The position numbers and the translations under genes were made by a program. Source: Sandaracinobacteroides saxicola (GTDB lineage Bacteria > Pseudomonadota > Alphaproteobacteria > Sphingomonadales > Sphingomonadaceae). Taken from it: DNA of 64,000 bases. The notes below the pieces were generated by a model. It was not told where the DNA came from. It saw only the letters and a list, made by a program, of their open reading frames with translations, and did not search any database. Shown piece after piece: positions 6,795-57,035 of the stretch; the stretch's first letter is position 1; each line of letters opens with the position of its first letter. The stretch is from contig NZ_CP059851.1 of NCBI RefSeq assembly GCF_014117445.1, forward strand, positions 1,922,001 through 1,986,000, given 5' to 3'.

Positions 6795-6947
6795 CCCAGG
6801 CTCTCCCACGCGGTTCGCGCCGCCGGCCAGCCCCGCGGCATCCCCCGCCGCGCCCGCTTCACCCGGGTCCCTCAACCCGTCCACGAACACCCCTATCACA
6901 TATCATAGGCCGAACCCGGCAACAAGCGTGCCGTCAGTTTTGTTGGC

Positions 6948-6992
6948 GCGCATCTAGAGCGGAAAACCGGTGCCCACGTTTCCGCGATGCGC
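6948..6992. repeat. Alphaproteobacterial palindromic repeat, copy 1
   Basis: Outer arms GCGCATC and GATGCGC (6948-6954, 6986-6992) enclose an inner hairpin GCGGAAA/TTTCCGC. It matches the two other copies at 38847 and 46195, which keep the inner GGAAAA/TTTTCC. This is the short palindromic repeat seen widely in alphaproteobacterial genomes. It ends exactly where the ferredoxin stop codon begins on the minus strand, so it may also act as a transcript end. Confidence 0.75.
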
Positions 6993-7328
6993 TCACCTCC
7001 CCTTCATATCCACATGTCCCGCCGGCATCCGCACCGTCAGGCTGCCCAAATCCGCCGTCAGCAGGATCTGGCACGCCAGCCGGCTCGTCCGCCGCACATG
7101 GGCTGCAAAATCCAGCATGTCCTCCTCATGCGCCGACGCCTTCGGCAGCCGCGCGAAATCCGCCTCGTCCACGATCACATGACAGGTGCTGCACGCCATC
7201 GCCCCCTCGCACGTCCCCTCCAGCGGCTGGCCATTCGCCTGCGCCACTTCCAGCAACCGCACCCCCGCCGCCGCCTCGACCTCCCGGTCCAGGCCGCCGT
7301 CCGCCCGCAGGAACCGCACCCGGATCAT
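6993..7328 (-). CDS. Adrenodoxin-type 2Fe-2S ferredoxin
   Basis: A 111-residue electron carrier. Cluster ligands are visible as CEGAMACSTC (C-x5-C-x2-C) plus a later cysteine in RLACQILL, the spacing of the ISC-type/adrenodoxin class. The C-terminal LTVRMPAG is also typical. It lies at the end of a three-gene minus-strand unit behind two cysteine desulfurases, with its ATG overlapping the stop of the second (ATGA). That context points to a role in cluster biogenesis, as for Fdx, rather than in a P450 system; no P450 is nearby. Confidence 0.88.
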   Translation of the reverse strand: MIRVRFLRADGGLDREVEAAAGVRLLEVAQANGQPLEGTCEGAMACSTCHVIVDEADFARLPKASAHEEDMLDFAAHVRRTSRLACQILLTADLGSLTVRMPAGHVDMKGR

Positions 7329-20084: not shown

Positions 20085-20303
20085 TCGCTCCCGATCCTCC
20101 CCCACTTCCGGACGTCGATCCTTCCCTAGCGGAGCTGAAGGAGGCGACTCGCGCCAGCGAGCGGGAGGGGCGCCTGCGCGGCCAAGCCGCGCGGTCGCTG
20201 CCCTGGCGTTCGGCTCGGACGTATCGGGCGGCCAAGTCCTCCACACGCCGGCCAGGCCCTCGGCGAGACTGAAAATAGCGCTCCGGCGCTATTGCCAGCC
20301 GCC
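20085..20303. repeat. Intergenic mosaic with hairpin module (copy B1)
   Basis: Between the convergent ends of mfd and recN. It holds a REP-like part (CCTCCCCC..GGAGGCGACTCGCGC..GAGCGGGAGGGG), the palindrome GCGCGGCCAAGCCGCGC, the constant linker CACGCCGGCCAGGCC (about 20253-20268) and a hairpin AATAGCGC/GCGCTATT (about 20274-20293) next to the recN stop. Related modules occur at 26135, 35460, 48790 and 56187. No gene is seen in this stretch. Confidence 0.7.
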
Positions 20304-21944
20304 TCAGGCCAAAAGCTTCTCCGCCGCCGCGCGCGCTTCGTCACTCACCGCGTCCCCGCTCAACATCCGCGCCAGTTCCTCCCGCCGCGCCGCGCCCGTC
20401 ACCGCCACCACCTCCGTCCGCACACCCCCGGGGCCCGTCGCCTTCGAGATCACCAGATGCTGCGCCCCGGCGGCGGCCACCTGCGGCGAGTGCGTCACCA
20501 CGATCACCTGTGCCCCCGCCGCCACCCGTGCCAGCCGCGCGCCGATCGCCGACGCGGTCGCGCCTCCCACCCCCCGGTCGATTTCGTCGAAGATCAGCGT
20601 GCCCGCCGCTCCCTCGCTCGCCAGCGCTACCTTCAATGCCAGCACGAACCGGCTCATCTCACCACCACTGGCGATTTTCGTCAGCGGGCCAAAAGTGGCC
20701 CCCGTGTTGGTCGCCACCTCGAACAGCACGCCATCCTGCCCCGCCGGCCCCGGCTCCGCCCGCTCCACCCGGGTCCGGAATCGCGCCGCTTCCAGCTTCA
20801 GTGCCGGCAGTTCGGCATTGACCGCCCCATCCAGGCGCGCTGCCGCCGCCGTCCGCGCCTCGCTCAACCCGTCAGCCGCCGCGGCATAATGTTTCTCCGC
20901 CGCCACCACCGCCGCCCGCAGCGGCTTCAATCCTCCCTCCCCCGCCTCGATCGCCGCCGCGCGCTCCCCCAGCTCCCCCGCCAGCGCCGCCAGGTCATCC
21001 GCCGCCACCCGATGCTTGCGCGCCATTGCCCGCAATTCGAACAGCCGCGCTTCCGTCGCCTCCAGATCATCCGGCGTGAATGACAGCGCCTCGCGCGCCG
21101 CCGCCAGCCCGGCCTCCACCTCGTCGCCCTCCACCAGGGCCCGGTCGACCGCCGCCAGCGCCGCCGCCAGCCCCGCGTCCGCCTCCGCCAGCCGTTCCAG
21201 CCGCCGCCCCGCCTGCCGCAACTGAGAGAGCGCGCCGTCGCCGCCACTCACCAGCGCCTCCACCGCCAGCAGGTCATCCGCCAGCCGCGCGCCACGCTGC
21301 ATCCTTGCCCGCGCTTCCGCCAGTTCCGCTTCCTCCCCCGGCCGTGGCGCCAGCGCGCGCAGTTCGGTCACCGCATGGCTCAACCACTCCCGGTCGCGCG
21401 CCGCGTTCGCCAGCGCTTCCTCCGCTGCCAGCAGCGCCGCCCGAGCCGCGCTCGCCGCTGCCCAGGCCGCCGCCACCGCCGCCGTGTTGCAGCCGCCGAA
21501 GGCATCCAGCAGCGCCCGATGTCCCTTCGGCGCCAGCAGACCCCGGTCATCATGCTGGCCATGCACCTCAACCAGCGCCGCGCCCACCTCCCGCAGCAGC
21601 GCCGCCGACACGGGCAGGTCGTTCACGAACGCCCGGCTGCCACCATCCGCCTTCACCACCCGCCGCAGCAGCAGCTCTTCGCCCTGCTCCAGCCCATTCT
21701 CCTGCAGCAGCGCCCGCACGCCATGCCCGGCCGGCGGCGCGAAGGCCGCGCTCACCACCGCCTGTGCCGCGCCGTGGCGCACCAGCCCCGCGTCCGCCCG
21801 GTCGCCGAGCACCAGTCCCAGCCCGTCCAGCAGGATGGACTTGCCCGCCCCCGTTTCGCCCGTCAGCACGGTCAACCCGCCCGCCAGCTCCAGGTCCACC
21901 GAAGCGATCAGCACCACATCCCGCAGGGACAGCCGCGTCAGCAT
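20304..21944 (-). CDS. recN: DNA repair protein RecN
   Basis: A 546-residue SMC-like ATPase acting in double-strand break repair. The N-terminal half has Walker A GETGAGKSILLDGLGLVLG, a long central helical region rich in glutamate and alanine, then the ABC signature ASGGEMSRFVLALK, Walker B TLIFDEIDRGVGG and the H-loop VVTHSPQVAA. The start at ATG 21944 (MLTRLSLRDVV) fits the family; upstream codons are not conserved in style. It follows bamD by 10 bases and is likely co-transcribed. Confidence 0.95.
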   Translation of the reverse strand: MLTRLSLRDVVLIASVDLELAGGLTVLTGETGAGKSILLDGLGLVLGDRADAGLVRHGAAQAVVSAAFAPPAGHGVRALLQENGLEQGEELLLRRVVKADGGSRAFVNDLPVSAALLREVGAALVEVHGQHDDRGLLAPKGHRALLDAFGGCNTAAVAAAWAAASAARAALLAAEEALANAARDREWLSHAVTELRALAPRPGEEAELAEARARMQRGARLADDLLAVEALVSGGDGALSQLRQAGRRLERLAEADAGLAAALAAVDRALVEGDEVEAGLAAAREALSFTPDDLEATEARLFELRAMARKHRVAADDLAALAGELGERAAAIEAGEGGLKPLRAAVVAAEKHYAAAADGLSEARTAAAARLDGAVNAELPALKLEAARFRTRVERAEPGPAGQDGVLFEVATNTGATFGPLTKIASGGEMSRFVLALKVALASEGAAGTLIFDEIDRGVGGATASAIGARLARVAAGAQVIVVTHSPQVAAAGAQHLVISKATGPGGVRTEVVAVTGAARREELARMLSGDAVSDEARAAAEKLLA

Positions 21945-25705: not shown

Positions 25706-26125
25706 GTGCGGATCCTGCTGGATACAAATGTCGTCGTGTCAGCGCTACTGTGGAATGGCCCACCACGGCGATTGCTCATGATGGCACGTGACCATGACGT
25801 CATGCTGTTGACCAGCCCTCCCCTTCTAGACGAATTGCGCGATGTTCTCGAACGTCGAAAATTCGCCGCCAGGCTGCAAGCAGCGTCACTATCCCCGATC
25901 GACCTTGTTCGCGGCTACGCCGCGCTCGCTTATTCCGTGCGCCCCGATGCCGTCTCGGGCATCGCGCCTGACTCTGACGACGACATTGTTATAGGAACGG
26001 CATTGGGTGGTCGTGCAGCCTTGCTGGTCACCGGCGACCACGGCTTGCAATCCGTCGGCCGGGTGGACACGGTGCGGATCGTTGATACCGGAAACGCCCT
26101 GCTGCTGATCGGGCAGGAAGCATAG
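25706..26125 (+). CDS. PIN-domain toxin (COG1569-like ribonuclease)
   Basis: A 139-residue PIN nuclease. Acidic active-site residues are visible in RILLDTNVVVSALLW, SPPLLDELRDVLERRKF, PDSDDDIVIGTAL and LVTGDHGLQ. The sequence type (COG1569) is the PIN family often annotated as toxin component of type II pairs. It begins with GTG immediately after the antitoxin stop. The predicted target is RNA, probably tRNA or mRNA, in the cytoplasm. Codon use is less biased than in the flanking genes. Confidence 0.8.
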   Translation: MRILLDTNVVVSALLWNGPPRRLLMMARDHDVMLLTSPPLLDELRDVLERRKFAARLQAASLSPIDLVRGYAALAYSVRPDAVSGIAPDSDDDIVIGTALGGRAALLVTGDHGLQSVGRVDTVRIVDTGNALLLIGQEA

Positions 26126-26134
26126 CGCCACAGG

Positions 26135-26264
26135 AGATGTGGCAAAGCCGCGCTGTCGGACGGATCGAACCGGGGGTATCCCGGTTCGTCCGCCGGCCAA
26201 GCCGCACGCGAGTCTGCGAACCTTCGGCGGATTGCGATGCAATCCGCCTCCAGGCCGCAGCCGC
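26135..26264. repeat. Hairpin module downstream of rpsD (copy B2)
   Basis: A chain of perfect hairpins on the rpsD 3' side: CGAACCGGG/CCCGGTTCG (26166-26174, 26180-26188), then GGCGGATTGC/GCAATCCGCC (26226-26235, 26239-26248). Between them is CGCCGGCCAAGCCGCACGCGAGTCTG, a variant of the constant linker of the other copies. A further palindrome, CAGCCGC-TTA-GCGGCTG (26258-26274), has the rpsD stop codon as its loop. No gene is seen here. Confidence 0.7.
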
Positions 26265-26876
26265 TTAGCGGCTGTAGAACTCGACCACCAGGTTCGGCTC
26301 CATCTTCACCGGATAGGGCACTTCGTCCAGCGTCGGCACGCGCACATATTGCGCGGCGAAGCCATCGACGTTCACATATTCCGGCGCCTCGCGCTCGCTC
26401 GATTGGGTCGCTTCCAGGATCAGCGCCATTTCGCGCCCCTTCGGCCCCACCTCGATCACGTCGCCCGGCTTGATGCGCGCGGACGCGATGTTGCACTTGC
26501 GGCCATTCACATGGATATGCCCATGGTTCACGATCTGCCGTGCGGCGAAGATCGTCGGCGCGAACTTGGCGCGATAGATCACCATGTCCAGCCGCTGTTC
26601 CAAAAGGCCGATCAGGTTCTGGCTGGTATCACCCTTCATCCGCACGGCCTCGGCATAGACCTTGCGGAACTGCTTCTCGGTCACGTCGCCGTAATAGCCC
26701 TTCAGCTTCTGCTTCGCCTTCAGCTGCACGCCGAAGTCAGAGAGCTTGCTCTTGCGCCGCTGGCCGTGCTGGCCCGGCCCATATTCGCGCTTGTTCACGG
26801 GCGACTTCGGCCGGCCCCAGATATTCTCGCCCATGCGGCGGTCGAGCTTGTACTTGGCGCTTGTGCGCTTCGACAT
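26265..26876 (-). CDS. rpsD: 30S ribosomal protein S4
   Basis: A 203-residue ribosomal protein of normal length. It carries [37 protein letters not shown], and the S4 RNA-binding domain around [20 protein letters not shown] and [12 protein letters not shown]. It binds 16S rRNA early in small-subunit assembly. It stands alone as a minus-strand gene, as is usual in alphaproteobacteria, and is followed by a chain of hairpins. Confidence 0.97.
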
Positions 26877-35459: not shown

Positions 35460-35592
35460 CCATCCCTCAAGAAACGGAGGATTCGCCACCAGCGGGAGCA
35501 TCACGGCCTCCCTCGAACCGCCTGCCGGTCGGCGAAGCCACCCGCACGCCGGCCAGGCCTGCGGCGGATCTGAAAATGGCCCCGCGCTGCCT
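35460..35592. repeat. Intergenic hairpin module (copy B3)
   Basis: Between the convergent ends of lepB and the sensor kinase. It carries the constant linker GCACGCCGGCCAGGCCTGCGG (about 35544-35565) followed by a TCTGAAAATGG segment, as at the other module copies, but the distal hairpin is weaker. No coding region is seen. Confidence 0.6.
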
Positions 35593-36933
35593 TCAGCCGC
35601 CCACGGCCAGCCGGAACCGCGCCCCGCCCCCCGGCGCCCGCAACACTGCCAGGCCGCCGTCATGCGCCAGCGCGATCTGCCGCGCCAGGCTCAAGCCCAC
35701 CCCGGTGCCGCCCGCCTTCGTCGTGAAGAAGGGCAGGAACACGTCCCCCGCCGCGTCGGCCGCCACCCCTGGCCCATTGTCGTCCACATCGATCCACACC
35801 CGCCCCGCCGCCGCTTCCGCGCGCAGCGCCACCGCCGGCACCGCCGCATGTCCCCGGGCCGCCTCCGCGGCATTCTTCAGCAGGTTGATCAGCGCCTGCA
35901 TCAGCAAATCCGGATCCGCTTCCATCCGCAAGCCATTCGCCTCCACCGTCAACGCCACGCCTAACGCCGCCGGCTCCGCCGCGAACAGCCGCGCCAGCTC
36001 GGCGAACAGCGGCTCCAGCACCACCGGCTGCGCCACGACCTGCGGAAACCGCGTCAACTGCCGGTAACTGCGCACGAACCGCATCACGCCCTCGGCCCGC
36101 GCCGCCAGCGTCTCCACCGCCTCCCGCGCATCCCCCACGCGCGGGTCGTCCCCCTCCACCTCCGCCATCAACCCCGCCGCGCTCGCCGCCAGCGACGTCA
36201 CCGGGGTCATGCTGTTCATGATTTCATGCGTCAGCACCCGCACCAGGTCCGCCTGCGCGCTCAACTCGGCGCGGTTCAACTCACGCTGGATCGATTCCAC
36301 CGCCACCACCCGCACCGCGCCCCGCGTTCCCGACCGCACCACGGCCACCGACATCAGCATTGCCACTTGCACCCCGTCCACCAGCAGAGGCACCTCCCGC
36401 CGCGCCCCCGCCGGCGCTTCGCTCAGGAACGCGCGGAACGCGCCGCCATAGACGCCATAGTCCGCCAGCCGCGTCCCCATCCCCACCCCGAACCGCCGCC
36501 GCGCCGCCTTGTTCAGCAATGCCACCTCGCCCGCCTCGCTCACCGAGAGCAGCGCCACCGGCGCATCCTCCACCAGCGCCGCCAGGAACCGCGCCTCATC
36601 CTCCCCTTGCCGACGCTCCGCCCGCAACCGCGCCACCGCGGCATCCATGCTCGCCGCCAGCGCATCGAACCCGCTGTCCCCGGGTTGCGCAGCAAAATGT
36701 TGCGTCAGGTCGCCGTGCCGCAGCGCCTCGATGAAGCGTGCCAGTTGCGCGTTCGTCCGGCTGACATGGCGCCAGATCGATACCCCCACCGCCACCACCA
36801 GCAACGCCGCCACCAGCGTCGCCGCCCGCAGGTCGGCCCGCCCCCAGGCCGCGATCAACAACCCCATCGCCGGCAGCAGCAGCAACAGCCGCAGCAGCAG
36901 CTGCACGTCGAACCGCCGCCACCAGCCCCTCAC
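35593..36933 (-). CDS. Membrane sensor histidine kinase (NtrY-like)
   Basis: A 446-residue kinase with two N-terminal transmembrane helices, a HAMP-like linker (SRTNAQLARFIEALRHGDLT), a PAS-like domain around VEDAPVALLSVSEAG, the phospho-acceptor histidine in RVLTHEIMNSMTPV, and the ATPase boxes LINLLKNAAEAA, VDDNGPGVA and GTGVGLSLARQI. It begins at GTG overlapping the response-regulator stop (GTGA), so the pair is co-translated. The short periplasmic loop suggests it senses the membrane or cytoplasm. Its partner is a sigma-54 activator, and the likely target is the divergent efflux operon. Confidence 0.9.
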   Translation of the reverse strand: MRGWWRRFDVQLLLRLLLLLPAMGLLIAAWGRADLRAATLVAALLVVAVGVSIWRHVSRTNAQLARFIEALRHGDLTQHFAAQPGDSGFDALAASMDAAVARLRAERRQGEDEARFLAALVEDAPVALLSVSEAGEVALLNKAARRRFGVGMGTRLADYGVYGGAFRAFLSEAPAGARREVPLLVDGVQVAMLMSVAVVRSGTRGAVRVVAVESIQRELNRAELSAQADLVRVLTHEIMNSMTPVTSLAASAAGLMAEVEGDDPRVGDAREAVETLAARAEGVMRFVRSYRQLTRFPQVVAQPVVLEPLFAELARLFAAEPAALGVALTVEANGLRMEADPDLLMQALINLLKNAAEAARGHAAVPAVALRAEAAAGRVWIDVDDNGPGVAADAAGDVFLPFFTTKAGGTGVGLSLARQIALAHDGGLAVLRAPGGGARFRLAVGG

Positions 36934-45430: not shown

Positions 45431-46195
45431 TTGAAGATCGGCCTGATGGTCTCCCCCACCCCCGCCGCGCGCGAGGCCGAGGCCGAACTCCGCCCCCTCA
45501 TCGACTTCGTCGATCCCGCGCACGCCGACATCCTCGTCGCGCTCGGCGGCGACGGCTTCATGCTCGACGTCCTGCACCGCATGCTCAACGCGCAGCGCTC
45601 GGTCCCCGTCTTCGGCATGAACCGCGGCACCGTCGGCTTCATGATGAACGCCTGGGCGCCCGACGGCCTCGCCGAACGCCTCGCCGCCGCCCGCGCCTTC
45701 ACGCTCAACCCGCTGCTCATGACCGCGCACAGCATCGAGGGCGAAACCGTCACCAGCCCCGCCATCAACGAGGTCAGCCTGCTGCGCGAAACCCGCCAGG
45801 TCGCCAAGATCGAGATCGCCATCGATGGCCGCGTCCGCCTCTCCGAGCTCGCCTGCGACGGTGTCCTCGTCGCCACGCCGGCCGGCAGCACCGCCTACAA
45901 CCTCAGCGCCCACGGTCCCATCCTGCCGCTCGGCAGCGACCTGCTCGCGCTCACCCCGATCAGCCCCTTCCGCCCCCGCCGCTGGCGCGGCGCCCTGATC
46001 CCGAACGACAGCAGCGTCACCTTCCGCGTGCTCGACCCCGAAAAGCGCCCCGTCAGCGCCGTCGCCGACCAGGTCGAGGTGCGCAATGTCGACAGCGTCA
46101 CCGTGACCACCGACAAGAGCCGCACGCTGACCATGCTGTTCGATCCCGAATATGCGCTGGACGACCGCATCCTGATGGAACAATTTCTGAGCTAG
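45431..46195 (+). CDS. nadK: NAD kinase
   Basis: A 254-residue enzyme that phosphorylates NAD to NADP. It has the GGDG motif in VALGGDGFMLDVLH, the NE motif in INEVSLLRE, and SELACDGVLVATPAGSTAYN. It begins at TTG 45431, four bases after the moaA stop, so is probably co-transcribed with it. Its stop codon is the first part of a palindromic repeat. Confidence 0.92.
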   Translation: MKIGLMVSPTPAAREAEAELRPLIDFVDPAHADILVALGGDGFMLDVLHRMLNAQRSVPVFGMNRGTVGFMMNAWAPDGLAERLAAARAFTLNPLLMTAHSIEGETVTSPAINEVSLLRETRQVAKIEIAIDGRVRLSELACDGVLVATPAGSTAYNLSAHGPILPLGSDLLALTPISPFRPRRWRGALIPNDSSVTFRVLDPEKRPVSAVADQVEVRNVDSVTVTTDKSRTLTMLFDPEYALDDRILMEQFLS

Positions 46196-46245
46196 AGCGC
46201 ATCGCGGAAAAGTGGCACCCGGTTTTCCGCAACCGATGCGCGACC
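46195..46245. repeat. Alphaproteobacterial palindromic repeat, copy 3
   Basis: Outer arms GCGCATCG (46197-46204) and CGATGCGC (46234-46241) around CGGAAAA/TTTTCCG. It starts within the nadK stop codon and lies between nadK and the lipase gene. Confidence 0.78.
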
Positions 46246-46267
46246 ACAAAAGACAGGGGAGAGACCG

Positions 46268-48576: not shown

Positions 48577-48659
48577 CCAGGATTTATTACCATAAAGGTT
48601 AACAAGCGACCCTCTCCCACAACCACTATACGCCAGTGATGACAAAAAGACGGCAAAAA

Positions 48660-48775
48660 TCGCTAAGCCCTTGATTCAGGCTGTCACTTTTTGCGACAAA
48701 CTTTCCAGATTTCCTGCCCGCAACAAACCAACAGCCTCACCCACCCCCCGTCACCCCGGGCTCGACCCGGGGCCC
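48660..48775. repeat. Dispersed repeat A (copy A1) plus REP palindrome
   Basis: A conserved ~80-base segment starts CCCTTGATTCAGGCTGTCAC (48668) and runs through TTTCCAGATTTCCT and CCAACAGCCTCACCCACC. It is followed by the REP unit with arms CCCCGGG/CCCGGGG (48754-48760, 48766-48772). The same pairing occurs at 55906-56010, and a partial copy lies at 56137. Any reading frame through it reflects the repeat rather than a gene. Confidence 0.75.
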
Positions 48776-48789
48776 CTCACACTATCGGC

Positions 48790-49081
48790 TCAATCGCTAA
48801 AGCCCCGCCCCCGCTTGCGGGGGAGGTGTCAGGCAAAGCCTGACGGAGGGGGCCAGCGCGCCCGAACCAACCCCGAACCATCGCCCCTGCGCGGCCAAGC
48901 CGCGCGAACTCGGACCGGGGTCGAGGCGGAGAGTGTGAGAAGAACAAAAGAAAGAAAGAACAAAAAAGCGGGCAAAGCCCGCTTGTCGGACGTGTCGGTT
49001 GGCCACCGGCCAACCGCACGCCGGCCAGGCCTGCGGCGAGTCTGGAAATAGCGCTTTGCGCTATTTCCAGCCGCCTTGGCC
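48790..49081. repeat. Intergenic mosaic with terminator and hairpin module (copy B4)
   Basis: The best-formed copy. In order on the plus strand: a REP-like unit, GCGCGGCCAAGCCGCGC (48892-48908), the terminator stem at 48966-48984, hairpin CGGTTGGCC/GGCCAACCG (48996-49016), linker GCACGCCGGCCAGGCCTGCGG (from 49017), and a 13-bp perfect hairpin CTGGAAATAGCGC/GCGCTATTTCCAG (49042-49070) next to the stop of the lipocalin-like gene. No coding region is seen in 48577-49081. Confidence 0.8.
48960..48984 (-). terminator. Intrinsic terminator of the minus-strand gene at 49082
   Basis: Stem AAGCGGGC/GCCCGCTT (48966-48973, 48977-48984) with an AAA loop; on the minus strand it is followed by a run of six or more T. 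It ends transcription from the lipocalin-like gene after the upstream hairpins. Confidence 0.8.
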
Positions 49082-49582
49082 TTACGCCGCTTTCTTCACC
49101 ATGTCCGCTTCCATCCCGCGCCAATCCCGGCTCACCAGCTTTTCCTCGATCGCCGTCCGCGTCTCCAGCACACCCCCGCGGATCCAATGCCACGTCCGGC
49201 AGCGCTTCTTGCCATCATCGCTCAGCTGGATCATCTCATACAGATACAGCTCCGGGTCCCCCGTCCGCTGCCAGTACAGCACCGTCGTCCGGTTGTTGGT
49301 GTCCAGCGTCATGTCGCTGGCCCAGCCCTTGATCAGGTCATTGTCCCACCAGATGCGCCCGTCGCGATACTCCGCCGGAAACTCCCGCACCTCGGTCCGC
49401 CCGTCCGCCCAGGTGTAATGATTGGTCTGGTGATAGGGAAACGGCCCCTCATCCGGAAAGCGGCAGAACAGCCGGCTCGTGTGCTCGTCCACCAGCTTCC
49501 CCTCGGCATTGTAATAGCGATAGGTGCCGTCCCACACCCCTTCATGCCGCGCCAGCGTCGGCAAATCTTCCTTGATACCCAT
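49082..49582 (-). CDS. Lipocalin-like (DUF3598-type) small protein, paralogue of 448-903
   Basis: A 166-residue cytoplasmic protein with HEGVWDGTYRYYNAEG, YRDGRIWWDNDLIKG and CRTWHWIRGGVLETRT, in the same order as the protein at 448-903. Aromatic residues alternate in strand-like fashion, consistent with a small beta-barrel. It lies 31 bases downstream of the hydrolase gene in a minus-strand unit with a VOC protein. Its position next to catabolic enzymes parallels that of its paralogue inside the hydantoinase locus. Function unknown; a ligand-binding or isomerase-like role is inference. Confidence 0.65.
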   Translation of the reverse strand: MGIKEDLPTLARHEGVWDGTYRYYNAEGKLVDEHTSRLFCRFPDEGPFPYHQTNHYTWADGRTEVREFPAEYRDGRIWWDNDLIKGWASDMTLDTNNRTTVLYWQRTGDPELYLYEMIQLSDDGKKRCRTWHWIRGGVLETRTAIEEKLVSRDWRGMEADMVKKAA

Positions 49583-53713: not shown

Positions 53714-53813
53714 CATTCCGCACACTGCCGCCGTCCGCAAACCACCCACGCCCACATCCCCCTTGAAATCGCCACGTCCCGCGTCACATTAACCACTACG
53801 GAGGCGACAACCG

Positions 53814-55748
53814 GTGACCCTGAAATGGAACTGCCTGGAATCGGTCGCCGCTATCGCTGTCGGCGCCGCCGCCTGCTTCCTCACCGGCCGTCCTGACACC
53901 GGCATCATCGTCGGCAGCGCGGTGGGCGGTGCCAAGCTGGCCGGCCTGCTCGGCGAAGCCCGTCAAAGCCACGGCATCGAAAGCGAAGCGGAACTCACCC
54001 GCATCCGCAATGACATTCTCGCCGAATGGGAAGCATGTTATCCCGATGGCGCCGATCGGTTCGATCTCGATTCCGCCGACAACGCCCTGGCCCGCCTGTT
54101 GCCACGCGCGATGCCCGATACCGACACGCTAGGGCGCCTCGTCGCCACCTTCGATTATCCCGGCCAGGTCGCAGATCTGGTGATCGCGTCCCTCGCGCGG
54201 CGCGATAGTCGCTTCGAGCCCGATGGCATCGAACGCCGCTTCGCCCGCACCGTCATCATCGCCGCGCTCGATTCTGCCCTCGTCAACCCGGCCTATACCC
54301 AACAGCTTATCGTCCCGATGCTGCGCGGCTTGGGCGAAGCAGTGGCCCGCGTCGAGGCAGGGGTGGGGCGGGTTGAATCCGGCCAACACAATATCATCGC
54401 CAAACTCGATGGTCTCGAAGCAGCCATCGCCCGCATCCAGGCCGCATCGCCCTCCCCCGCCATCGCCGAAACCGCCGTGCAGACCCTCACCACTCTCGCC
54501 CAGTCCCCTGATCCCGCCCTGCGCGCCGTTGCCGACGCGGATTCCGCCGGCGATCCGGACGCCGCCTACGCGCAGCTCATGGCCCTCGGCGAAGCTGACG
54601 TGACCACCGCCGCCGACCGCTTCCGCAACGCCGCCGCCCTCGCCGCTCCCTTCAATGTCACCCGCGCCATCGCCGCCTACGCCCGCGCCACCGATCTCGA
54701 CCCCCATGACTTCTGGACCTGGATCAACCTTGTCCGCCTCCATGTTGCCGAAGGAAGCCTTCCCGCCGCCCGCGCCACGCTCGACCGCGCCGCACAAATT
54801 GTTGGCGATGAGCGCGAGCAATCGATCGTCGCCAATGAACGCGGCGACATCGCCGTCGCCGAGGGCGACCTCCCCGCCGCCCGCGCCGCCTACGCCGCCA
54901 GCCTCGCCATCGCCGAACGCCTCGCTGCCCGCGACCCCGGCAACAGCGCGCGGCAGCGCGACCTCTCCATCAGTCACAACAAGCTCGGCGACATCGCTGT
55001 CGCCGAAGGCGACCTCCCCGCTGCCCGCGCCGCCTACGCCGCCAGCCTCGCCATCGCCGAACGCCTCGCCGCCCGCGACCCCGGCAACAGCGAATGGCAG
55101 CGCGACCTCTCCGTCAGCCACGATCGCCTTGGCAACATCGCCCGCGCCGAGGGCAACCTCCCCGCCGCCCGCGCCGCCTACGTCGCCAGCCTCGCCATCC
55201 GCGACCGCCTCGCCGCCCGCGACCCCGGCAACAGCGAGTGGCAGCGCGACCTCTCCGTCAGCCACAACAAGCTCGGCGACATCGCCCGCGCCGAGGGCGA
55301 CCTCCCCGCCGCCCGCGCCGCCTACGCCGCCGACCTCGCCATCGCCGAACGCCTCGCTGCCCGCGACCCCGGCAACAGCGAGTGGCAGCGCGACCTCTCC
55401 GTCAGCCACGAACGCCTTGGCGACATCGCCCGCGCCGAGGGCGACCTCCCCGCCGCCCGCGCCGCCTACGCCGCCGGCCTCGCCATCCGCGAAAGCCTCG
55501 CCGCCCGCGACCCCGGCAACAGCAAATGGCAGCGCGACCTCTCCGTCAGCCACGAACGCCTCGGCGACATCGCCGTCGCCGAGGGCGATCTCCCCGCCGC
55601 CTTCGCCTGCTATCGCCGCAGCCTGCCCATCGCCCAGGCACTTGCCGAAAAATGGCCCACCAACCCCGGCTTTGCCAAAGACCTTGCCTTCACTCGCCAG
55701 CGCCTCGCTACCCTGGAGGCCGAGTTGCGCGGCCGAACTACCGACTGA
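53814..55748 (+). CDS. TPR-repeat protein with hydrophobic N-terminus
   Basis: A 644-residue protein from GTG 53814 (GGAGG site before it). The N-terminus has a hydrophobic glycine-rich stretch (AAIAVGAAACFLTG, then IIVGSAVGGAKLAGLLG), possibly membrane-inserted. A helical region of unknown type runs to about residue 240, then a TPR region. From 54843, six 48-residue (144-base) repeats beginning GDIAVAEGDLPAARAAYAAS and ending in DLSVSH are nearly identical. This architecture resembles the TPR sensor halves of bacterial conflict or signalling proteins, but no NTPase or effector domain is seen. Function unknown. Confidence 0.7.
   Translation: MTLKWNCLESVAAIAVGAAACFLTGRPDTGIIVGSAVGGAKLAGLLGEARQSHGIESEAELTRIRNDILAEWEACYPDGADRFDLDSADNALARLLPRAMPDTDTLGRLVATFDYPGQVADLVIASLARRDSRFEPDGIERRFARTVIIAALDSALVNPAYTQQLIVPMLRGLGEAVARVEAGVGRVESGQHNIIAKLDGLEAAIARIQAASPSPAIAETAVQTLTTLAQSPDPALRAVADADSAGDPDAAYAQLMALGEADVTTAADRFRNAAALAAPFNVTRAIAAYARATDLDPHDFWTWINLVRLHVAEGSLPAARATLDRAAQIVGDEREQSIVANERGDIAVAEGDLPAARAAYAASLAIAERLAARDPGNSARQRDLSISHNKLGDIAVAEGDLPAARAAYAASLAIAERLAARDPGNSEWQRDLSVSHDRLGNIARAEGNLPAARAAYVASLAIRDRLAARDPGNSEWQRDLSVSHNKLGDIARAEGDLPAARAAYAADLAIAERLAARDPGNSEWQRDLSVSHERLGDIARAEGDLPAARAAYAAGLAIRESLAARDPGNSKWQRDLSVSHERLGDIAVAEGDLPAAFACYRRSLPIAQALAEKWPTNPGFAKDLAFTRQRLATLEAELRGRTTD
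54843..55600 (+). repeat. 144-base tandem repeat inside the TPR gene
   Basis: Units begin at 54843, 54987, 55131, 55275, 55419 and 55563, exactly 144 bases (48 codons) apart and nearly identical in DNA. The high DNA identity means recent expansion or gene conversion, and repeat number may vary between strains. Confidence 0.85.
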
Positions 55749-55899: not shown

Positions 55900-56010
55900 C
55901 CTAACCCCTTGATTCAGGCTGTCACTTTTTTCGCAAAACCTTCCAGATTTCCTATCCGCAATAAACCAACAGCCTCACCCACCCGTCACCCCGGGCTCAA
56001 CCCGGGGCCC
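55900..56010. repeat. Dispersed repeat A (copy A2) plus REP palindrome
   Basis: Starts CCCTTGATTCAGGCTGTCAC (55906) and matches 48668 onward through TTCCAGATTTCCT and CCAACAGCCTCACCCACC, then the REP unit GTCACCCCGGGCTCAACCCGG (55985). The 55749-55899 stretch before it is AT-richer and holds no recognisable gene. Confidence 0.75.
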
Positions 56011-56136: not shown

Positions 56137-56187
56137 CCCTTGATTCAGAACGCCACTTTTTTCGACGAACCTTCCAAAATCCTACAA
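56137..56187. repeat. Dispersed repeat A (partial copy A3)
   Basis: CCCTTGATTCAG at 56137 followed by CGCCACTTTTTTCGACGAACC and TTCCAAAATCCT, a diverged partial copy of the repeat at 48668 and 55906. It runs directly into module B5. Confidence 0.6.
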
Positions 56188-56405: not shown

Positions 56406-57035
56406 ATGTACACCATCCGCGAACTCTTCCTCACCCTCCAGGGCGAAGGCGCGCAAACCGGCATGCGCGCCGTCTTCCTCCGCTTTGCCGGCTGCAACCT
56501 CTGGTCCGGCCGAGAGGCCGACCGCGCCACCGCCACCTGCACCTTCTGCGACACCGACTTCGTCGGCACCGGCGGCCCCGGCGGCGGCAAATTCGCCGAC
56601 GCCGCCACCCTCGCCGCCGCCGTCGCCGCCACCTGGGGGCCCAGCCCCGCCCACCGCCTCGTCGTCTGCACCGGCGGCGAGCCGCTGCTGCAACTCGATG
56701 CCCCCCTCATCGATGCCCTCCACGCCCACGGCTTCCGCATCGCCGTCGAAACCAACGGCACCATCGCCGCGCCGGCGGGCATCGACTGGCTCTGCGTCAG
56801 CCCCAAGGCCGGCAGCACCACCGTCCAGCGCGCCGGCCACGAACTGAAACTCGTCTTCCCGCAACCCGCCCTCCCGCCGGAGGCGGTCGAAACCTGGCGC
56901 TTCGACCATTATTTCCTGCAACCCATGGACAGCCCCCACCAGGCCGCTAACATCCAGGCGGCCATCGCCTACATCCTCGACCACCCGCAATGGCGCCTCA
57001 GCCTCCAGACCCACAAGGTCACGGGCATCGCATGA
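56406..57035 (+). CDS. queE: 7-carboxy-7-deazaguanine synthase
   Basis: A 209-residue radical-SAM enzyme of queuosine precursor synthesis. The cluster cysteines have the C-x14-C-x2-C spacing (residues 30, 45, 48; AGCNLWSGREADR to CTFCDTDF), which marks the QueE subtype with an extended cluster loop. TLQGEGAQTG and CTGGEPLLQLD are conserved. It starts at ATG 56406 directly after a hairpin-rich module, without a clear promoter. It is followed 13 bases later by a small ribbon-helix-helix gene. Confidence 0.93.
   Translation: MYTIRELFLTLQGEGAQTGMRAVFLRFAGCNLWSGREADRATATCTFCDTDFVGTGGPGGGKFADAATLAAAVAATWGPSPAHRLVVCTGGEPLLQLDAPLIDALHAHGFRIAVETNGTIAAPAGIDWLCVSPKAGSTTVQRAGHELKLVFPQPALPPEAVETWRFDHYFLQPMDSPHQAANIQAAIAYILDHPQWRLSLQTHKVTGIA

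Follow-up and report, generated by a model that had tools for sequence, protein, structure and literature searches.

Results

The locus and its copies in the window

The window analyzed here is a stretch of 64,000 nucleotides of the Sandaracinobacteroides saxicola genome. A minus-strand gene encoding a 165-aa protein without NCBIfam match ends at 49082, and an element of 130–160 nt with three ordered hairpins is found at its stop codon (Table 1). In the sense of the gene, the parts are the basal helix P1, the variable hairpin H1, GACTC, the 3' arm of P1, H2, which carries a bulged A and a bulged U, and H3, which has a U-tract in this genome. The original prediction had drawn the module at 48790–49081; the element itself accounts for 48957–49081, while the rest consists of the hairpin H4 and other repeats. 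The linker GCACGCCGGCCAGGCCTGCGG, around which that module had been built, is the middle of the ordered fold, made up of the P1 3' arm and the 5' part of H2.

Table 1. Parts of the element at the 165-aa gene, and element copies in the window (R1, covariance model).
Feature	Position	Strand	Remarks
TAA stop of the 165-aa gene, abutted at 49082	49082..49084	-	One letter paired in predicted P1
P1 5' arm GGCCAAGGC, then GGC	49070..49081	-	
H1, variable apical hairpin TGGAAATAGCGC-AAA-GCGCTATTTCCA	49043..49069	-	
GACTC (GANTC, CcrM site)	49038..49042	-	3' foot of H1; A and T bulged; G and both C paired
Linker of the original prediction	49016..49036	-	P1 3' arm plus 5' part of H2
H2, hairpin TGGCCGGCGTGCGG...CCGACACGTCCGACA	48984..49027	-	Bulged A and U
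H3, intrinsic-terminator-like hairpin	48966..48984	-	T-rich tail 48956-48965
C/U-rich tract beyond H3	48917..48965	-	Boundary approximate
H4, hairpin GCGCGGCTTGGCCGCGC	48889..48905	-	Associated
Best copy	48952-49088	-	R1, 150 bits, top score in genome
Copy antisense directly before queE start codon	56256-56411	-	R1, 101 bits
Copy after rpsD	26122-26278	-	R1, 63.8 bits
Degenerate copy after recN	20184-20316	-	R1, 42.2 bits
Remnant after histidine kinase gene	35469-35600	-	R1, 20.4 bits, E 0.09; outside the 46
recN stop, abutted	20304	-	
rpsD stop, abutted	26265	-	
Histidine kinase stop, abutted	35593	-	

Five linker sites had been listed in the window. Pattern matching at ≤3 mismatches recovered three of them, against 0.03 expected: the linker is exact on the plus strand at 35544–35564 and 49016–49036 and has 3 mismatches at 20243–20263. 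The linkers at 26135 and 56187 were too diverged, and these copies were located by structure. Perfect hairpins had been reported to flank most linkers; by eye, this applies to H1 in three of the five copies, while the hairpin at recN is imperfect and the copy at 35460 has none. The placement of four copies at minus-strand stops (recN, rpsD, histidine kinase, and the 165-aa gene) was confirmed, but the wording that they start right at the stop was too weak, as the basal helix contains the stop or has it at its edge. Two copies, at 48966–48984 and at 56.2 kb, do share a GCGGGC hairpin with a T-tract. The CcrM site had been missed, and the fifth copy had been listed without its gene: it is antisense, immediately ahead of queE, whose ATG is at 56406.

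Genomic placement and distribution

Covariance model R1, built from 19 copies, found 46 copies in the 3.36-Mb genome of S. saxicola at E<1e-3, with a best E of 2e-33. Classified with a codon model trained on named genes, 31 abut a same-strand stop, four abut a tRNA end, nine (one of them weak) flank the 5' part of a gene in antisense orientation, and two are ambiguous. The proposed link to gene ends was strongly borne out, with 35/46 copies at same-strand CDS or tRNA 3' ends, as was the view of a constant framework with exchangeable hairpins, distinct from random debris. A genome-wide search with the linker returned 15 places at ≤3 mismatches and none for the reversed pattern.

Not every copy follows this arrangement. 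At three loci (L060, L061, and L097), an identical 86-nt H1 end immediately precedes, in antisense orientation, the ATG of queE, trpC, and tdk, the latter two named by eye, and these starts have no evident Shine-Dalgarno sequence. The serC leader of Rfam adjoins an antisense copy both in S. saxicola and in the relative G003 (L011 1360–1412, L121 1131–1183). The copy at L054 continues in frame into the truncated-looking N-terminal part of a gene that by eye resembles a dehydratase and has no clear start codon, an insertion by which the gene may have been cut. Given the antisense copies (9/46, with the serC copy in two genera) and L054, a role at 3' ends is not the whole story.

R1 matched nine of 59 relatives, S. 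saxicola included. In relatives, the element also follows tRNAs and, in four loci, RNase P RNA. Sites at groEL, an SDR gene, and rpoA each recur in three genomes of different genera, and those at rpsD, glnA, hppA, ahpC, and rpoZ in two; these genes were named by eye, except rpsD and rpoA, and their stops rest on an earlier codon model that misread the strand for some S. saxicola genes. Among named genomes, the core pattern picked out 84 stretches; their labels were Sphingomonadales taxa, unspecific Alphaproteobacteria, and, in one case, Microvirga. Core model R2 matched at least 25 of 196 genomes of the order, all within the own family (best 23 candidates per genome scored), and, at E≤1e-4, at least two of 289 genomes of the class, namely S. 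saxicola and one of the same family (best 16 candidates per genome).

In Rfam 15, no family reached its gathering score over the element and only weak matches lay below it, so a known Rfam RNA was ruled out. A literature search, conducted mostly outside subscription papers, found no published description of the element. Integron attC sites have a variable terminal hairpin and occur at gene 3' ends; judged by these general features, they were dropped as a candidate because the copies are scattered behind housekeeping genes.

A conserved fold with covariation

For the best window copy, the predicted folding energy was −86.5 kcal/mol (z −6.5), and four further copies gave z values of −3.8 to −5.9, with 1/200 shuffles folding as well in one of them. 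Across 90 copies from seven genomes, in an alignment fitted to the covariance model, covariation was 0.523 compared with 0.129 for shuffled and 0.05–0.07 for slid controls; in the same rows, 94% of cells were paired and 35/39 pairs had changed on both sides. A model-independent alignment of 52 cores gave 0.470 compared with 0.127 shuffled, and here 14 pairs had changed on both sides, a count reached by 25/500 shuffles. P1/H1, H2, and H3 are each conserved as structures and show covariation. It follows from the covariation and the two-sided changes that the hairpins described as different at each site are mostly one structure under compensatory change. That this constraint acts on RNA is less clear, given that the excess of G-U over A-C mismatches was only weak (63:41, p 0.04; 37:23, p 0.09; 19:12, p 0.28; overlapping sets).

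Pairing of the stop codon and last codons in P1

The stop codon, and often the final codons as well, are included in P1, which at tRNA and RNase P RNA loci borders the RNA end instead. Pairing was assessed in 85 of 108 parsed elements, the others having no GGC near H1 or an H1 longer than 62 nt, and 61 of the 85 have a coding stop. Since this set was picked for a stop near GGC, it tests pairing, not position; its stops derive from the earlier codon model, with its strand misreadings in S. saxicola, and it held locus L094 twice and some sister copies, which were dropped in a reduced repeat (n=56 and 80). Measured from the GGC that opens H1, stops were up to 12 nt inside or up to 19 nt before it (n=61), and lay 1–11 nt before it in 52/56 cases of the reduced set. 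The predicted helix includes stop letters in 37/61 and coding letters in 35/61 elements.

The P1 duplex scored −9.4, compared with −7.2 when arms were permuted within genome groups (0/500, n=85). The last three sense codons alone scored −5.73 compared with −4.75 permuted (0/2000, n=61), and −5.79 compared with −4.71 in the reduced set (0/2000, n=56). Codon pairing was pronounced where the stop is 1–6 nt from GGC (0/2000, n=28; reduced set 0/2000, n=25) and marginal at 7–14 nt (44/2000, n=30; reduced 21/2000, n=28). TAG is the stop of 17/31 element-bearing genes of S. saxicola and of 3/47 window genes, a comparison set that includes four element-bearing genes (p 2e-6); among stops preceding H1 only, it accounts for 14/24 (p 3e-6). 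Either the element supplies the TAG or P1 favors it.

A CcrM site within the element

The nearly invariant GACTC of the elements is a GANTC, the CcrM site, and S. saxicola encodes CcrM (6pbd match, E 1.3e-156, with a RAMA domain). GANTC is depleted in the window (81 occurrences, 222 expected), where its density is 1.27 per kb; over 600 nt of 30 composites from the same genome, it reaches 4.8 per kb, a count whose GAGAC variants may be register errors. Elements of the relatives G003 and G020 have 6.5–8.3 sites per kb, compared with 1.4 in upstream coding DNA and 1.8–2.4 downstream. GACTC is present in 34/34 G003 and 15/19 G020 elements. Within the fold, its A is unpaired in 86/90 rows and its T in 76/90, and the other letters are paired. 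The variable letter of GANTC is C in 83/90 rows, which pairing explains and methylation does not. GACTC probably has a further function as a methylated site in the DNA.

Exchange, orthology, and the repeat mosaic

The prediction had also called the module mobile or recombining. Recombination is documented by the copy at 2025525–2025680, which is identical to the queE copy over 96 nt (H1 part) and to the copy at 1020301–1020438 over 156 nt (linker/H2 to H4); the two stretches overlap at the linker, and the copy is a chimera joined there. Of the 595 pairs formed by 35 parsed copies of the 46, the H2 core is identical in 16 and the last 20 nt of H1 agree to ≥90% in 12; no pair is alike in both. 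Mobility, by contrast, was not supported, and hairpin diversity is mostly compensatory. The Y1 transposase family PF01797 had no match in S. saxicola or G003 and one in G020; with PF01797 absent from the first two, a RAYT-driven REP was dropped as a candidate.

When G003 was compared with two sister Polymorphobacter MAGs (13/14 loci, one cut hit omitted), 12/15 sister copies, representing 10 G003 sites, were at the same gene. Of the paired cells, 575 were unchanged, 21 were double-changed and still Watson-Crick, and 20 were changed on one side and still paired, whereas 25 one-sided and four double changes broke the pair and nine cells were gapped. Two loci hold 15/21 of the double changes, as if hairpins had been replaced in a block. 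Given compensatory change, also at orthologous sites, the elements mostly stay put.

In S. saxicola, a repeat mosaic of up to about 600 nt has the element on its gene-proximal side, and shared sequence sets in at the gene border. Boundaries, H4, and composite GANTC counts were assessed in 30 of the 46 copies: shared sequence begins −9 to +27 nt from the model start and can reach about 600 nt downstream, and H4 was found downstream of 26/30. A repeat like CCTTGATTCAGGCTGTCACTTTTT with a GANTC site occurs in the window at 48669–48692, 55907–55930, and 56138–56161; a longer form matches the genome 29 times at ≤3 mismatches, and in 25 cases an element lies no more than 500 nt upstream. Palindromes CCCGGGCTCGACCCGGG, which resemble CGTC-type REPs, lie at 48750, 53689, and 55985. 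A module like ATGCCAATATGGTTATCA ... TTTGGCAAGC, seen by eye ~500–600 nt after the element start at L043, L044, L045, L048, and L061, is possibly a regulator site or the end of the element. The window also has six units at 144-nt spacing (54667–55686, with 64–88% similarity to the reference unit), which belong to the plus-strand gene 53793–55748 for a repetitive protein, and a pair of 57-nt inverted repeats (6938–6994 and 46195–46251), 82% complementary and 39 kb apart.

Discussion

A predicted structure at transcript 3' ends

We consider the element a lineage-specific, CIR/REP-like repeat family that serves mainly as a transcribed 3'-end structure, a predicted role to which we assign a probability of roughly 55%. 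The T fraction in the 8 nt after H3 was 0.64 in S. saxicola (n=34), compared with 0.143 in the window; Sandarakinorhabdus reached 0.51 (n=10), but the fraction dropped to 0.31 for Polymorphobacter (n=29), to 0.25 for a mixed set of four Sphingomonas/MAG copies, and to 0.17 for Glacieibacterium (n=10). A terminator scan of 48600–49200 returned one site, H3; shuffles average 1.2 sites, so that this single site alone is not above chance. H3 would end the transcript, and in lineages without a U-tract, Rho or processing would make the end. Ribosomes are described as repressing E. coli terminators that lie within a few bp of the stop, with recovery beyond about 30 bp (PMC4824070). H1 and H2 would supply that distance, separating the stop from the terminator by about 100 nt of folded sequence, beyond ribosome reach, and may block 3' exonucleases as well. 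Terminating ribosomes would open P1 transiently, and the hairpins diverge through compensatory change with occasional exchange between copies.

A more far-reaching version would make the element a new class of cis-acting RNA around the stop codon, in which P1 co-evolves with the last codons, opening by the ribosome decides the fate of the 3' end, and the CcrM site links it to replication-dependent methylation; we regard this as quite doubtful. Bacterial gene ends are usually described as a stop, a spacer, and a terminator. In the present case, the stop itself appears to be part of a conserved multi-hairpin structure, which is found repeatedly at housekeeping genes, tRNAs, and RNase P RNA. Several genera carry it, with a cell-cycle methylation site embedded. 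It offers a natural series in which to ask what a structure at the stop does to termination and decay, and what role GANTC repeats of the CIR type play.

Alternative explanations

Copies could instead spread as DNA, with recombination at the linker swapping hairpins and gene ends merely tolerated. The chimera, the uncoupled sharing of H1 and H2, the identical H1 end at three unrelated gene starts, the copy within the N-terminal part of a gene (L054), and the shared sequence that, at the 30 loci examined, starts near the model start and can run ~600 nt downstream all speak for such a cassette. We nevertheless hold it to be rather unlikely, as most sister-species copies stand at orthologous sites, several sites are common to different genera, P1 fits the local coding end as pasted DNA would not, and S. 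saxicola and G003 have no Y1 transposase, the only family searched.

A role at the DNA level, as a CcrM-methylated, cruciform- or protein-binding site at gene borders with incidental transcription, would account for the GANTC enrichment in composites and in the elements of two relatives against depletion in the window, for the weak wobble asymmetry, and for the antisense copies. This seems improbable to us given the pairing-explained C of GANTC, the copies that lack GACTC (4/19 in G020), the strong preference for the 3' ends of sense genes and for tRNA ends, and the T-rich tract on one side. That the copies are ordinary clustered terminator hairpins and REP debris, alike through GC-richness, is very improbable and disfavored: hairpin clusters near stops are described as common, more so in GC-rich bacteria (PMC8355165), but linkers and bulges are ordered and conserved across genera, model matches in this genome reach 2e-33, and covariation appears in fitted and unfitted alignments alike.

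Comparison with known systems

The element resembles known bacterial gene-end repeats of the CIR and REP kinds. REPs are described as single hairpins of 20–40 bp with unpaired GTAG or CGTC tags; those with GTAG often provide a TAG stop, those with CGTC have no dedicated transposase in that account, and in S. wittichii most convergent CGTC REPs lie <20 bp from 3' ends (PMC3733652). Our element likewise consists of dispersed palindromes near gene 3' ends, but it is an ordered three-hairpin fold rather than a single tagged hairpin, and CGTC-like REPs adjoin it as separate modules. REPs ≤15 nt from stops lower translation, as reported in RepRanger (PMC12306157), and they too place structure right after the stop codon; in contrast to these, the helix described here contains or edges the stop, and non-translated genes carry the element as well. 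BIMEs are known as mosaics of REPs and other motifs (PMC2817692). The element is similarly the gene-proximal end of a repeat mosaic in S. saxicola; unlike in BIMEs as described, the H1-H2-H3 block alone is kept across genera. The HRC-28-1 motif is comparable as a structured candidate possibly in a 3' UTR and with a terminator at its end, but differs in its six stems and in its 33 examples, mostly from Polynucleobacter (PMC8632094).

The CcrM-associated intergenic repeats (CIR) of Caulobacter and Brucella, about 110 bp long, are described as two hairpin arms joined by a linker, with a conserved GANTC site (PMC2229807). Core model R2 had no match outside the own family in 289 genomes of the class (best 16 candidates each), and CIR1–4 were compared by description. 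On that basis, the element recalls CIR repeats: both are alphaproteobacterial intergenic repeats with a conserved GANTC, CcrM is encoded in S. saxicola, and the two inverted-repeat arms with their linker correspond to H1, the linker, and H2 here. As described, however, the GANTC of CIR is at or in a terminal loop, whereas here it is at the 3' foot of H1, and our element has in addition a third hairpin, a stop codon in its basal helix, and sites after tRNAs and RNase P RNA.
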